26,874 nucleotides of DNA from the IMG/VR virus record IMGVR_UViG_3300045125_000027, positions 1 to 26,874 of that record; one strand, written 5' to 3'. The position numbers were made by a program, and so were the translations under genes. Source of the DNA: a virus. The notes beneath the pieces were generated by a model. It was not told where the DNA came from. It ran no database searches and was given only the letters and a program-made list of their open reading frames with translations. Each line of letters opens with the position of its first letter. Position 1 is the first letter of the stretch. Below, piece after piece: positions 15,861 to 26,433 of this stretch.

Positions 15861-16841
15861 ATGAAAATAATTTTAGTATGCGGTGCTGGTGGATTTATTG
15901 GGTCTAACTTAGTTAAGAAACTGAAGGCTCAAGGTCACAAAGTTATTGGGGTGGATCTTAAGAAGCCTGAATTTTCTGAAACTCAAACAGATCATTTTAT
16001 GTGGCTGACCTTAGAAAAGAAGCTACTTGGAAAACTCTATCAGAGTATAAGGATATATCAGAAGTCTACCAACTAGCTGCTGACATGGGTGGAGCAGGAT
16101 ATATATTTACAGGAGAGCATGATGCTGATGTAATGAGTAACTCAGCATTAATTAATCTATTCTGTTGTAAGTATGCTCAGAAGCATAAGTGGAAAGTGTT
16201 TTACTCTTCTTCTGCTTGTATTTATCAAAGTATAATCAGGAAGATCCAAACAATCCAAAGTGTGCTGAAGAATCGGCCTATCCTGCTGCACCCGATTCAG
16301 AATATGGTTGGGAAAAATTGTTTAGTGAAAGACTATACCTATCGTATCACAGGAATTACGGACTTGATGTTCGTATTGCGCGATTCCACAATATTTTCGG
16401 ACCAGAGGGTTCTTGGAATAATGGTAAGGAGAAGGCTCCAGCAGCGATCTGCCGCAAGGTGGCAGAGACTATAAACGGAAGTTATATAGAAGTGTGGGGT
16501 GATGGTAAACAAACAAGGTCATTCCTATACATTGACGAGTGCTTGGAAGCTATGGAACGTCTAATGAATTCTGATTTCATAGGACCAGTTAACATTGGAT
16601 CTGATGAAATGATAGCTATTCAACAGTTAGCTTGGAATGTTATTCGCCTATCAAAGAAGGATCTAGTAATTAAAAATATCCCAGGACCAACTGGTGTTAA
16701 GGGTAGAAATAGCGACAACAAGCTAATTCAGAAAAGCTGGGATGGAAACCCTCAGCAAAACTTATGGAGGGTTTACAAAAGACCTATGAATGGATATTAT
16801 CTCAAGCAATCAAGGCAAATACCGCTCATACCAAGCTATAA
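15861..16841 (+). CDS. GDP-mannose 3,5-epimerase-like NAD-dependent sugar epimerase, frameshifted
   Basis: Extended SDR enzyme. GDP-mannose 3,5-epimerase (GME) makes GDP-L-galactose/GDP-L-gulose from GDP-mannose. Seen: GAGGFIGSNLVKKL (NAD Rossmann loop, residues 8-21), VYQLAADMGGAGYIFTGEHD (about 16060-16120), FYSSSACIY (about 16200-16225), YGWEK (16303-16317; the YxxxK catalytic pair), RIARFHNIFGPEGSWNNGKEKAPAAICRK (about 16372-16458) and WGDGKQTRSFLYIDECLEAMERL, then PVNIGSDEM, IPGPTGVKGRNSDNKLI. This series is very close to plant GME. Shifts occur near 15998, 16225 and 16735. Last gene of the island; TAA TAA stops at 16839-16844. It could supply the donor for the island transferases. A related NDP-sugar epimerase is the alternative. 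Confidence 0.8.
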
Positions 16842-16847
16842 TAAGCC

Positions 16848-17180
16848 ATGAACGACTTCAATAAATTTCAGCAAGAGGCAATCCGCACAGCAGTCTACCC
16901 TAATGTTAAGCGGAATCTTTATTATCCCACACTTGGACTAGCTAGTGAGGCAGGGGAAGTCTGTGGTAAGATTAAGAAGATCATGCGAGACAAGGACGGT
17001 CAAGCAACTAATGAAGATATAGATAAGATCTCAAGCGAGCTTGGTGATGTGCTTTGGTATGTCTCTGCTATTGCATACGAACTTAATATTCCTCTTAAGA
17101 GTATTGCAGAGGGTGTTCTGAAGAAGTTGGATGACCGTAAGAGCCGTGGAGTGATTCAAGGATCAGGAGATAATCGCTAA
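16848..17180 (+). CDS. MazG-like nucleotide pyrophosphohydrolase
   Basis: Intact, 110 residues, one MazG domain (bacterial MazG has two). Hydrolyses nucleoside triphosphates to monophosphates; phage forms may also act on ppGpp. Seen: FNKFQQEAIRTAVYP, then LYYPTLGLASEAGEVCGKIKKIMRDKDG (about residues 24-51), with the ExxE helix of the Mg site (SEAGEV), and DKISSELGDVLWYVSAIAYEL (about 60-80) with the second metal motif ExxD. The end reads DDRKSRGVIQGSGDNR, also seen in phage and bacterial single-domain MazG proteins. ATG 16848 is seven bases past the island's last gene; its stop shares a base with the next ATG (TAATG). Confidence 0.9.
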   Translation: MNDFNKFQQEAIRTAVYPNVKRNLYYPTLGLASEAGEVCGKIKKIMRDKDGQATNEDIDKISSELGDVLWYVSAIAYELNIPLKSIAEGVLKKLDDRKSRGVIQGSGDNR

Positions 17181-23260: not shown

Positions 23261-23335
23261 TCCTCGGTAGCTCAATGGTAGAGCAATCGGCTGTTAACCG
23301 ATTGGTTGTAGGTTCGATCCCTACCCGAGGAGCCA
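23261..23335 (+). tRNA. tRNA-Asn(GUU)
   Basis: Acceptor TCCTCGG/CCGAGGA, anticodon stem ATCGG/CCGAT around CTGTTAA (anticodon GTT), T-loop GGTTCGATCC, G discriminator and encoded CCA. Confidence 0.94.
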
Positions 23336-23342
23336 TATACAA

Positions 23343-23414
23343 GGGAGGCGACGTTGAAGGAAACGTGCCGTAGTAAATACGGATTCAGCAGGTGTCGAAC
23401 CCTGCACTCCCACC
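23343..23414 (+). ncRNA. tRNA-like structured segment (degenerate or miscalled tRNA)
   Basis: Four stems in cloverleaf order: 5-bp end stem (GGGAG 23343-23347 with CTCCC 23407-23411), ACGTT/AACGT, CCGTA/TACGG with a 5-base loop, and GCAGG/CCTGC with loop TGTCGAAC, followed by ACC. The anticodon loop is two bases short and the T-loop one base long, so no anticodon can be read. A true tRNA with indel errors, a decayed tRNA, or another RNA are all possible. Confidence 0.35.
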
Positions 23415-23622
23415 TGCGAGTACGTTGTTGAGTGTTGACGATGGCGTACATTTTTCATCGCTGCGGCTTCAGCAAGCGTTCGACATAGCTGAAAACGTCC
23501 GAGTACCATTCGCCCGATGGACGTTAAGAACAGAGGGGCTATGTTGGGGGTTTTTGCAATTTATCCATTATGTTTCGTTGCGTGCGTTAAACTGAAATTG
23601 CAACTTAGCTCTTTAAAATAAC
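23415..23622 (+). other. Non-coding gap with inverted repeats in the tRNA array
   Basis: No convincing gene. It holds a 7-bp inverted repeat (AACGTCC 23494-23500, GGACGTT 23519-23525) and a 9-bp one (TTGCAATTT 23554-23562, AAATTGCAA 23595-23603). It may contain a small RNA; frames here have no coding character. Confidence 0.4.
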
Positions 23623-23657
23623 GGGGATGTGGTGGAACAGGCAGACACATCAGACTT

Positions 23658-24336
23658 TTAACTATATGAGTCATAAAGGAGAAATCCTTTATCGAGAACT
23701 AACCAAATTCGGTGAAACCTTTAACATGGCAACGCCGAGCCAAATTACATTTTTATGTTTTTACCCCTATAATTAGGTGTAAGAGCATGGCAATTTGGAC
23801 AAAGTAATCTTAAGTTACAAAGATTATTATTTTCATGATCTCCGTCAATATGATCTAATTCTAGGGGTATATTTTTACCTAACCAATTCTGAAGATTGCA
23901 ATTTGAGCATTGAGATTTAAATAAACCCTCTTCAATTAGTCTTTGGCGTAGACGATGAGATGATATAGAGAATTGATTGCATAAGTAAGATGCAATAGGA
24001 CGCTTATGTCCAAATTTTCTATTCTTGTTCCAAGATTTGCCTTTGAAATGTGATATATCTAACTTGTGCAACTTAATCTGTCTTTTTAATGTAGCATAAT
24101 TTCCTCCTGCTGGGACGATATTGAGCTTCATTAGGACTTCACGAATAGAGTGGCTAGTTGTTATAGCTTCTTTAAGTTGTTCAATAGTGTATCTATGTTT
24201 CATAATAATGTAATGTGTGTAGAGACTAGATGGTTAGTGCCTGACTCCTGTAACTAGGAAAGGCAAAGGCATAGTCCAGACTACAAATGCGTATACCTTA
24301 CAAATATATAGCAGCGGTGAAAACCGAAGTAGTAAG
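23658..24336 (+). ncRNA. Group I self-splicing intron in tRNA-Leu
   Basis: 679 nt. P1: exon GACTT (23653-23657) pairs with GAGTC (23668-23672), giving the required U-G pair at the 5' splice site. P2: perfect 8-bp hairpin with a GAAA loop (23673-23692). P4: TTCGG (23708-23712) with CCGAG (23735-23739). P6: ATTACATT (23744-23751) with AATGTAAT (24207-24214), whose loop holds an antisense HNH gene. P7: GACTA in AGAGACTAGATGG (from 24221) with TAGTC in GGCATAGTCC (about 24268-24277). P8: TGCCT/AGGCA between them. P9-type hairpin CGGT-GAAA-ACCG (24315-24326). The last base is G24336. These are the P, Q, R and S elements of the group I core in order. Subgroup is not assigned; the site suggests IC3-like. 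Confidence 0.9.
23745..24203 (-). CDS. HNH homing endonuclease, antisense inside the tRNA-Leu intron
   Basis: Intact, 152 residues. The N-terminal half is a DNA-binding-like helical region (YTIEQLKEAITTSHSIREVLMKLNIVPAGGNYATLKRQI). The HNH domain follows: CSNCNLQNW (CxxC, about 99-107), then PLELDHIDGDHENNNLCNLRLLCPNCHALT (about 113-142), with the DH general base, the central N, and the terminal H of HNH, plus a second CxxC. Homologous to the HNH protein at 24689. It is encoded opposite to the tRNA and intron, and its last codons form one arm of P6. Start ATG at 24203 has no clear ribosome site. Expected to nick or cut an intronless tRNA-Leu allele. Confidence 0.88.
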   Translation of the reverse strand: MKHRYTIEQLKEAITTSHSIREVLMKLNIVPAGGNYATLKRQIKLHKLDISHFKGKSWNKNRKFGHKRPIASYLCNQFSISSHRLRQRLIEEGLFKSQCSNCNLQNWLGKNIPLELDHIDGDHENNNLCNLRLLCPNCHALTPNYRGKNIKM

Positions 24337-24397
24337 AAAATCTGGAAGAACTTAGTTCGTGCGGGTTCGATTCCCGCCATCCCTACCAAACAACGAT

Positions 24398-24441
24398 CCA
24401 TTCACCTCTTGAATGGTGGTCGGGGAGTTAACTCTCCCGAG
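24398..24441 (+). other. Two short hairpins after tRNA-Leu
   Basis: CCATTCA/TGAATGG (24398-24404, 24410-24416) and a CGGG/CCCG-ended hairpin over 24421-24439 containing the 10-base palindrome GAGTTAACTC. Not a tRNA: no T-loop or anticodon. Possibly processing signals next to the terminator. Confidence 0.35.
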
Positions 24442-24467
24442 CCACAGGATAACACCTGTGGTTTTTT
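24442..24467 (+). terminator. Rho-independent terminator inside the tRNA array
   Basis: Perfect 7-bp stem CCACAGG/CCTGTGG with a 6-base loop, then TTTTTT. tRNA-Arg starts three bases later, so that half of the array needs read-through or its own promoter. Confidence 0.9.
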
Positions 24468-24469
24468 AA

Positions 24470-24546
24470 GTCCCCATAGCTCAACAGGATAGAGCAGATG
24501 ATTTCTAATCATCAGGTTGAAGGTTCGATTCCTTCTGGGGATACCA
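24470..24546 (+). tRNA. tRNA-Arg(UCU)
   Basis: Acceptor GTCCCCA/TGGGGAT, D-stem GCTC/GAGC, anticodon stem GATGA/TCATC around TTTCTAA (anticodon TCT), T-arm GAAGG-TTCGATT-CCTTC, encoded CCA. Reads AGA/AGG, the arginine codons of the glycan island. Confidence 0.93.
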
Positions 24547-24552
24547 ATACAT

Positions 24553-24626
24553 GACTCCATAATTCAATGGCAGAATATCTGGCTTTTAACCAGTCTATCC
24601 GAGTTCGAGTCTCGGTGGAGTCACCA
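24553..24626 (+). tRNA. tRNA-Lys(UUU)
   Basis: Acceptor GACTCCA/TGGAGTC, D-stem ATTC/GAAT, anticodon loop CTTTTAA (anticodon TTT), T-loop GAGTTCGAGTCTC, encoded CCA. The outermost anticodon pair is T-T. Confidence 0.9.
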
Positions 24627-24655
24627 ACTTAAAATTTCATTTAAAATTGAACTCT

Positions 24656-24690
24656 AGATCTACTATATATATGTATAAGAGATCTACTAT
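24656..24690 (+). repeat. 11-base direct repeat at the HNH start
   Basis: AGATCTACTAT occurs at 24656-24666 and 24680-24690, with a TA-rich stretch between. The second copy includes the likely ATG (24689). May be a duplication from insertion or a regulatory repeat. Confidence 0.45.
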
Positions 24691-25129
24691 GTCAAATCCA
24701 AAAAAAAGAAAAGAATCACTTTGTAAATTTTGCAATATTAAGTTTGAATACTTACAAACTGCTCAAAAGGGGAAATATTGTTCTGTAAAGTGTCAACAAA
24801 AGTATCAGAGCGATCAAAAAGTTAATAATTGGAAATCGGGGACTTTTGATGGCACAAAAAATAACGGAAATCAACTATCAAATTCAATAAGAACTTACTT
24901 ATTAGAACAAGCAAATCACAAATGTATTCAATGTGGTTGGAATAAAATTAATCCAGTTACCAACAGGAGTCCTTTAGAGATAGATCACATTGATGGTGAT
25001 AGCACAAATAACAGACCAGAAAATCTTAGAGTATTATGTCCTAATTGCCATGCGCTCACTAGCACATATAAAGCTCTAAACAAAGGCAAAGCAAATAAAA
25101 AAAGATTACGATATTATAAGCTGATGTAG
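24689..25129 (+). CDS. HNH endonuclease, free-standing in the tRNA array
   Basis: Intact, 146 residues from ATG 24689; an in-frame ATG at 24647 adds 14 unlikely residues. The N-terminus MSNPKKRKESLCKFCNIKFEYLQTAQKGKYCSVKCQQKY has CKFC and CSVKC, a four-cysteine zinc finger (residues about 12-35). The HNH domain: CIQCGWNKI (CxxC), PLEIDHIDGDSTNNRPENLRVLCPNCHALTS, with the DH, N and terminal H. Close to the antisense intron HNH (shared LE-DHIDGD, NLR-LCPNCHALT), but with a zinc finger in place of its helical N-domain. Its last ten bases are the first ten of tRNA-Tyr; the stop TAG is tRNA positions 8-10. Probably a homing enzyme maintained by the tRNA locus. Confidence 0.85.
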   Translation: MSNPKKRKESLCKFCNIKFEYLQTAQKGKYCSVKCQQKYQSDQKVNNWKSGTFDGTKNNGNQLSNSIRTYLLEQANHKCIQCGWNKINPVTNRSPLEIDHIDGDSTNNRPENLRVLCPNCHALTSTYKALNKGKANKKRLRYYKLM

Positions 25130-25208
25130 ACCCGTAGGGGCGGGAGCAGACTGTAAATCTGTTGTTATTAAATTGACCCCGTAGGCTCGACTCCTACCAT
25201 CAGCACCA
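25120..25208 (+). tRNA. tRNA-Tyr(GUA)
   Basis: 89 nt, class II. Acceptor GCTGATG/CATCAGC, anticodon stem GCAGA/TCTGT around CTGTAAA (anticodon GTA), T-arm GTAGG-CTCGACT-CCTAC, long variable arm, A discriminator, encoded CCA. It overlaps the HNH gene by ten bases. Confidence 0.9.
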
Positions 25209-25215
25209 CTATGCA

Positions 25216-25646
25216 ATGAGCCATGCCAACAATATGCCCATTAAAGAAGTTCGCAGACTCCCGAGGTTGGAGTCCTAAATGATATTTATCAAGTTGCCAA
25301 GACTGATAAGTTTCAAATTAACTATAGCATCCTGTATCCAAATATAGTTAAGGCTTGGCACCGACACGCAAATCAAGATGATTACTTCTGTGTACTAAAT
25401 GGAATGGCGCAAGTAGGTGTGTTTGATTTGGATACAGAAAGGATTCCTACGAGTATTTTATAGGAAGAACACAACCCAGCGGTAGTTCACATAAAAGCTG
25501 GAGAGTGGCATGGTTTAAATCGCACTTAGGGAATCAACCTTGCGGACTCTCTATGCTCGGTAACTAATCTTTATGATCCTAAGAATCCAGATGAAGAAAG
25601 ACGCGCTTTTGATTCTTTCTGCGGAGAATCCTTCTGGAAGCCCTGA
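25216..25646 (+). CDS. dTDP-4-dehydrorhamnose 3,5-epimerase-like cupin (RmlC-like), frameshifted
   Basis: Reading from ATG 25216 (or 25234 in the same frame): MPIKEVRRLPRLES, then after a shift near 25275 NDIYQVAKTDKFQINYSILYPNIVKAWHRHANQDDYFCVLNGMAQVGVFD (about 25278-25430). AWHRHxxQxDYF is the cupin metal/active-site strand of RmlC-like sugar epimerases; typical RmlC has RGLHxQ. Later pieces are HKSWRVAWFKSHLGNQ-like segments near 25500, and NLYDPKNPDEERRAFDSF (about 25566-25620), the NxYDPxxPDE ending of this family. TGA at 25644-25646. About 140 residues, shorter than RmlC (about 180). Could add a sugar to the phage's glycan set, but it is 8 kb from the island. Confidence 0.6.
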
Positions 25647-25656
25647 GAATAAATGA

Positions 25657-26433
25657 TTAGTAAGTGAATCCCTTGAGCGATCTGGTACTTTCTTCCATAC
25701 ACGATAGACACCATCAGATGCCATCTTGAATATGGTGATATCTCCAGTACCAACACAGTTTCTAATATCAACCTTCTTGGTTGTGTTGTCTAGTCTCAAA
25801 GTGATTCCATTATTGTGATCTAGTGTTAGACCATCAATAACAATCTCCTCTGGGACCTGCTTGTCCTGCTGCCTTATTTGCAAAATCAAATAACTGAACT
25901 GCGGTCATCTTTGGATTCTTATATCCAACATAGCCACCCGTCCAATTTAATGATTTGCAATACTCAATGCATACAGCAGCAAAACTATCAGCCCAAGTAC
26001 CATCACTTCTCTTTGCAACATTAGTTTGTTGCACAGTCTTTAAGTATGGATCAACAATCTCTACCGTGCCGTTAGGACCAGAGTCCTTAATTGATACAGC
26101 GAGGCTGCTCTCGCTAAACCTCTCTCTTTGTCCAATCTCATTTCCGTGAATGTCAGGTAACAACAATGTGTCTTGGGGTTTTGGCCCACTTAGGGTCAGA
26201 CCTGTTACCAGCAAGACGGATTTGTAATAGCTGGGCAGGAATGTTTGTCGCCGGAGCAACCTTCATACAATGTGCTTCGCCACTCTCGATCTCGTCGTAG
26301 ATGGCGTGTTCTTTCATATAGGTAATTCCCGAAGTCTCGAACAAAGCAGGGCGCGTGGTAATCCACCACACGAACTCTTATTGTCTGTGGATTTCTTACT
26401 TTGGTGGCGACGGACACCCCACATGGTAGTCAT
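25657..26433 (-). CDS. Unrecognised minus-strand protein, frameshifted
   Basis: ATG at 26433 with AAAGGAGATAAA in front. It opens MTTMWGVRR, then by frame switches VRNPQTIRVRVVDYHAP, ALFETSGITYMKEHAIYDEIESGEAHCMKVAPATNIPAQLLQIRLAGN, DIHGNEIGQRERFSESSLAVSIKDSGPNGTVEIVDPYL (about 26165-26050), TWADSFAAVCIEYCKSLNWTGGYVGY, and QVPEEIVIDGLTLDHNNGITLRLDNTTKKVDIRNC, ending VYRVWKKVPDRSRD. The family is not recognised; the last third reads as beta-rich. The stop is put at TAA 25657-25659, ten bases beyond the convergent cupin stop; a frame without that shift would run on to 25551. About 255 residues. Its start overlaps the stop of the gene above. Confidence 0.55.

Follow-up and report, generated by a model that had tools for sequence, protein, structure and literature searches.

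An antisense HNH endonuclease gene inside the group I intron of a phage tRNA-Leu(UAA) gene

The tRNA-Leu(UAA) gene of a phage (IMG/VR record IMGVR_UViG_3300045125_000027; the whole stretch of 26,874 nucleotides that was analyzed is called the window) is interrupted by a group I intron, and the P6 loop of this intron carries an HNH endonuclease gene on the opposite strand (Table 1). Very probably, to judge from the sequence comparisons, an HNH endonuclease specialized on the anticodon arm of tRNA-Leu(UAA) invaded the P6 loop of a group I intron which was already present in phages. The sequences hold a spliceable tRNA, a covarying fold, empty and occupied alleles, purifying selection in the antisense frame and a locus specificity of the endonuclease family.

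The exons 23623-23657 and 24337-24388, joined to each other, were called by ARAGORN as an 87-nt tRNA-Leu(UAA) with CCA, as the first-pass annotation had stated, whereas no tRNA was called at the split tRNA-Leu locus in the unspliced DNA. Counts of phage tRNAs made with standard tools miss such split tRNA-Leu genes. The junction 23657|24337 is fixed exactly by two natural empty alleles, found in the contigs L462 and L463, and their intact genes give the same outer boundaries (23623-24388) as the annotation. The intron is inserted between U34 and A35, and the site GACTT|...|AAAATC is shared by cyanobacteria, in line with the earlier assignment to the site of the cyanobacterial and plastid tRNA-Leu intron.

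Table 1. Positions of the features at the tRNA-Leu(UAA) locus of the window.
Feature	Position	Strand	Evidence or remark
Insert between tRNA-Asn and tRNA-Leu	23339..23622	+	absent from L462/L463
tRNA-Leu(UAA) 5′ exon	23623..23657	+	ends after U34; ARAGORN on spliced exons; same position in intact L462/L463 alleles
P1, GACUU (23653-23657)/GAGUC (23668-23672)	23653..23672	+	U.G at 5′ splice site
Group I intron (IC3-like), 679 bp, final G	23658..24336	+	L462/L463 gap; helices, covariation; RF00028 E=1.2e-4; model R1 E=2e-14
P2 hairpin, ATAAAGG/CCTTTAT	23673..23692	+	paired 75% vs. 46% shuffled, phages
P3 5′ strand, 3′ partner 24231-24237	23699..23705	+	paired 84% vs. 52% shuffled
P4-P5, TTCGGTG/CGCCGAG around CC/GG	23708..23739	+	P4 97% paired in phages
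P6a 5′ strand, partner 24201-24214, 13/14 pairs	23744..23757	+	overlaps stop-codon end of HNH ORF
Antisense HNH homing endonuclease gene, 152 aa	23745..24203	-	PHROG 10822; dN/dS; invariant HNH residues
P6a 3′ strand	24201..24214	+	overlaps HNH ORF start codon
P7 5′ strand, GACTA	24224..24228	+	P7 100% paired in phages
P3 3′ strand	24231..24237	+	partner 23699-23705
P8	24239..24264	+	81% paired in phages
P7 3′ strand, TAGTC	24272..24276	+	P7 100% paired in phages
P9 (ACTAC/GTAGT), P9a and GAAA-capped P9b (24315-24326)	24280..24333	+	P9 98%, P9b 97% paired
tRNA-Leu(UAA) 3′ exon, encoded CCA	24337..24388	+	ARAGORN on spliced exons; intact L462/L463 alleles
Another HNH gene, free-standing, flanked by tRNA-Lys and tRNA-Tyr	24689..25129	+	Pfam HNH_3/HNH; PHROG 10822/1271

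The helices were tested on 76 tRNA-Leu(UAA) introns, which were ORF-free or had their ORF excised. In P1, the two outer pairs vary and the inner C-G, U-A, and U.G pairs are retained in all 37 phage rows. P3 shows double changes in six of its seven pairs with 84% pairing in phage rows against 52% in shuffled columns, P9b is paired in 97% (77% shuffled, phages), and covariation was found in P3, P4, P9, and P9b. The U-G of P1, the helices P2, P4, P6, P7, P8, and P9 and the terminal G named in the annotation were all recovered, and P3 and P5 can be drawn as well. Against the Rfam model Intron_gpI (RF00028), the window reaches 26.7 bits (E=1.2e-4) and stays under the gathering score of 50, because the 459-nt ORF splits the model; ORF-less relatives exceed this score with 59.6, 58.9, and 51.0 bits. 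Rfam alone is too insensitive for an intron which is split by an ORF. A covariance model of the intron 3′ half (R1), built from 27 other phage introns with the window excluded, matches 24213-24350 with 72.7 bits (E=2e-14). The covariance-model check proposed by the annotation thus succeeded with R1 and with the ORF-less relatives, but not for the window itself at the Rfam gathering score. With a conserved P3-P9 core including the P3/P7 pseudoknot, a U.G at the splice site and a terminal G, the region 23658-24336 is a group I intron, whose predicted splicing restores the tRNA.

The protein encoded by the antisense ORF matches the HNH endonuclease family PHROG 10822 (E=7e-41). A Pfam search with it gave no match, and a Foldseek search against the PDB returned mostly HNH nucleases as top matches, none of them significant (best E=0.037). 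The HNH motif with two Cys pairs and the catalytic His is present, and its HNH residues are invariant across the family. The copy in the contig L044 is 93% identical, with dN 0.031 and dS 0.245 (dN/dS 0.13), and 17 of the 30 changes fall on third positions of the antisense frame. Judging from this substitution pattern, the ORF is a real gene under purifying selection, which bears out its earlier description as an antisense HNH ORF in the P6 loop. Both the start codon and the stop codon of this gene fall within the two P6a strands. A clear Shine-Dalgarno sequence is missing at its start, so that expression may be weak; five other antisense genes have a Shine-Dalgarno-like stretch directly upstream of the start codon. 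A promoter scan of 23300-25700 gave no minus-strand candidate. That the ORF is a dead remnant or a chance frame in an ordinary immobile intron would agree with the lack of a clear ribosome-binding site and with the many other ORFs of the window which look frame-broken, but it is hardly credible given that the frame is unbroken in three contigs, the dN/dS is low and the HNH residues are invariant, and given that empty as well as occupied alleles exist, which speaks against an immobile intron.

In L462 and L463, the contigs with the empty alleles, the tRNA cluster is the same (Ile-Asn-Leu-Arg-Lys-Tyr, plus Gly in L463) and exactly 23658-24336 is missing. The intron-bearing L044 and the intron-less L463 are 98.1% identical across about 1 kb upstream, 94% identical downstream and 100% identical in the tRNA-Leu exons, so that some of these closely related viruses have the intron and others lack it. 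Such occupied and empty alleles in nearly identical genomes are the mark of a mobile intron. Between the window and L044, the introns differ by about 2-6% and the flanks by 12-17%. Because the upstream tRNA region likewise contains a part with 95% identity between these two, the differences do not establish that the intron itself was transferred very recently.

The insert between tRNA-Asn and tRNA-Leu was found to be composite. Its part 23415-23622 co-occurs with the intron and is 97% identical in L044, and its first 76 bp, comprising a tRNA-like fold, are present in the window only. A search for the origin of 23339-23622 yielded matches in the two sister contigs only. The cloverleaf-like fold at 23343-23416 (-27.4 kcal/mol, z -3.0) has a tRNA-like T arm, was not called by ARAGORN and is missing in L044 and L463.

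A further exchange seems to have taken place around the second, free-standing HNH gene. The region 24627-25117 is 99.2% identical in L044 and missing in L463, and tRNA-Arg and tRNA-Lys are 98.7% identical between the window and L044 vs. 73% between the window and L463. The tRNA-Arg/Lys tract was apparently exchanged together with this HNH gene and resembles a recent homing tract. Over 24470-25208, the second HNH gene with tRNA-Arg, tRNA-Lys, and tRNA-Tyr is 98.7-100% identical to L044, where the flanks differ by 12-17%.

The relatives of the intron-borne HNH gene show at which locus this family resides. Among the 80 closest viral relatives, 72 are located at tRNA(UAA) loci (61 automatic calls and 11 from core motifs, four of the latter read by eye): 17 inside the intron, 20 next to a tRNA gene that has the intron and 35 next to an uninterrupted one, commonly at a distance of 47-80 nt from the tRNA. 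Intact tRNA-Leu(UAA) genes make up only 37 of the 273 intact tRNAs at the loci of HNH relatives. Closely related endonuclease genes occur at intron-bearing and at intron-less loci, e.g., L418/L419, L403/L402, and L390/L394. Six of the 17 embedded genes, including the window's sister L382, lie antisense in P6; the others are in sense orientation, mostly in the P1/P2 region. The tRNA(UAA) loci include tRNAs with a short variable arm, whose similarity to the others lies mainly in the anticodon arm. Taken together, the family lives at tRNA(UAA) genes and its probable target is most likely the anticodon arm. An intron endonuclease specific for the anticodon region of another tRNA is known from a bacterial chromosome.

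Alternatively, the HNH enzyme might target a neighboring tRNA or spacer and use the intron loop as a harmless seat, with mobility in trans or by hitch-hiking. Some relatives in isolates lie among other tRNAs, for example F-TflIV after tRNA-Ser/Ile and a gene of Erwinia phage Cronus between tRNA-Leu(UAG) and tRNA-Tyr, and the tRNA-Arg/Lys beside the second HNH gene were replaced. We regard this alternative as unlikely in view of the 72 of 80 relatives at tRNA(UAA), short-variable-arm tRNAs included. Such UAA-anticodon tRNAs with a short variable arm were seen in L386, L388, L396, and L419, with the same intron in all of these except L419.

The orientation of the genes was followed on a tree of 67 family members (HEG tree), in which several deep branches are moderately supported. 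All antisense genes, embedded and free-standing, fall into one clade of 22 rows (82/90). Orientation changed at least four times vs. a mean of 15.9 after shuffling, and the position inside or outside of an intron changed 10 times vs. 17.2. The AU test rejects that the antisense-embedded genes arose only once (p=0.0004). Starred sister pairs of an embedded and a free-standing gene are L428/L405, L399/L392, and L387/L421, and for three antisense-embedded genes the starred sister is a free-standing gene. The window and the huge phage LR756511 carry their genes in opposite orientations, which was first explained by an inversion across the inverted repeat of P6 (14 bp with 13 pairs). A sense gene flipped within the same intron would account for the P6a repeats bordering the HNH gene and for the homologous sense gene which the closest intron core (LR756511) carries in the same loop. 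However, the window gene groups with antisense genes of other phages and that of LR756511 with sense free-standing ones, and all antisense states lie within the one clade; since joining the window gene with the sense gene of LR756511 gives p=0.073 and is not formally rejected, the inversion is improbable rather than refuted. The tree is better explained by a lineage that was already on the opposite strand and repeatedly entered (or left) the P6 loop.

The intron is widespread in viruses. A first exon pattern scan returned mostly ordinary intact tRNA-Leu genes, and pattern scans followed by a splicing test yielded spliceable tRNA-Leu(UAA) introns from at least 106 viral loci, including some duplicates. 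Among the matches listed, most viral introns are 185-300 nt long and ORF-less, and 28 of the 106 are ORF-bearing introns of at least 600 nt, nearly all with an HNH gene. The occurrence of this intron in a phage gene, described by the annotation as unusual, is thus matched at about 100 or more viral loci, mostly without ORF, and an ORF inside it is not rare either, with 28 cases among the 106 matches listed. Among huge phages, LR756511 (595 kb) has the intron with an HNH gene lying in sense orientation in P6, and LR756501 (735 kb) has it without an ORF. The intron was also found at about 56 bacterial loci, including some from cyanobacteria, alphaproteobacteria, Acidobacteria, and Bacteroidetes. 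As expected by the annotation for cyanobacterial introns, which were said usually to lack a homing gene, the sampled ones are all at most 307 nt long and without ORF.

The intron tree places the window next to LR756511 as its sister (95, starred) and not with the cyanobacterial introns, which form a separate clade (100, starred); the exact place of the window in this tree is unsure due to its long end branch. The phage introns are diverse and fall on both sides of the bacterial ones. A recent acquisition of a cyanobacterial or plastid-type intron from a host, with phages as mere carriers, could explain the same insertion site and fold and the core in common with cyanobacterial introns. This origin was tested with the intron tree, was not supported by the two separate clades and the diversity of the phage introns, and is considered highly improbable. 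Regarding the earlier suggestion that the intron moved between hosts on phages, movement among phages is backed by the empty and occupied alleles of 98%-identical viruses; a recent exchange with cyanobacteria is not, since the window groups with LR756511 instead.

Based on these comparisons, the following mechanism is proposed. The group I intron splits the phage tRNA-Leu(UAA) gene at U34|A35, splicing would restore the tRNA, and the P6 loop is occupied by the antisense HNH homing endonuclease gene. The most likely target of the endonuclease is the uninterrupted anticodon-arm sequence GACTT^AAAATC of co-infecting phages, which it would cut or nick; this target is assigned from the location of the genes alone. 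Repair would then copy the intron with its gene, sometimes together with flanking DNA. The antisense orientation most likely goes back to an opposite-strand endonuclease lineage beside tRNA-Leu that entered or left the intron more than once, and the antisense placement would separate the expression of the endonuclease from the tRNA transcript. From sequence we infer the splicing, the cleavage with its exact site and the minus-strand expression. In a wider sense, it is rather likely that flanking free-standing copies of this HNH family repeatedly and independently colonized a phage tRNA-Leu intron which is abundant and apparently undescribed, and that they did so in different loops and in both orientations, so that the relatives would represent stages in the formation of a mobile intron with antisense embedding as a recurrent end state.

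The components of this system are already known: tRNA-Leu group I introns, HNH homing genes, collaborative homing and, in nuclear rDNA, antisense homing genes. Cyanobacterial tRNA-Leu introns share the gene, the U34|A35 site, an alignable core and the U.G of P1 with the window intron, whereas the latter resides in a phage, belongs to a separate clade and carries an HNH gene. F-TflIV (hegA, phage BF23) is homologous in its C-terminal HNH part (52.7% over residues 61-150) and is also located among tRNAs, but unlike the window gene it is free-standing, outside introns and adjoins tRNA-Ser/Ile. In collaborative homing, as in cyanophage psbA and the ICP1 terminase, an endonuclease gene lies beside an ORF-less intron, and the enzyme is thought to cut the insertion site of that intron (PMC10448857, PMC2988022). 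An endonuclease gene adjoining an ORF-less intron was also found here, at tRNA-Leu(UAA), but in this case the intact gene with endonuclease, the intron with neighbor and the embedded form all occur in one family. Antisense homing genes were described in nuclear rDNA group I introns of Didymium and Diderma (PMC9548176); these likewise run opposite to the ribozyme, yet they are of the His-Cys box type and lie in P9 in a eukaryotic nucleus, in contrast to the HNH gene in P6 of a phage tRNA gene. A review from 2014 places every phage group I intron known at that time in a protein-coding gene, despite the large number of tRNA genes in phages (PMC3984707). The open-access papers on phage introns and phage tRNAs that were searched mention no intron in a phage tRNA gene; priority is uncertain, as only open-access text was covered.

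With at least about 100 viral cases, with and without the intron, with the endonuclease outside or inside and in both orientations, the collaborative-homing route is directly testable at one small and well-defined locus, tRNA-Leu(UAA). Nearly every arrangement of the HNH gene and tRNA-Leu(UAA) is found among the relatives, by which the birth of a mobile intron can be traced step by step.

Additionally, several minor observations were made. In the window, many coding genes between 1 and 22500 appear to be broken into overlapping frames, e.g., 16001-16474 and 16189-16851, which suggests sequencing or assembly errors in the record. The intron of L189 (minus strand, about 290 nt) has a tRNA-like sequence in its P6 loop with acceptor-like ends and a T-arm-like stretch. 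Two contigs from metagenome-assembled genomes labeled "Bacilli" (L286 and L313) have a tRNA-Leu intron with an HNH gene in sense orientation in P6 and may be phage contigs binned with their host. Finally, in the marine Autographiviridae L049 and L051 (Pelagibacter phage HTVC120P), the capsid gene is annotated in pieces around related group I introns, with Rfam scores of 78 and 76.9 bits in L049.
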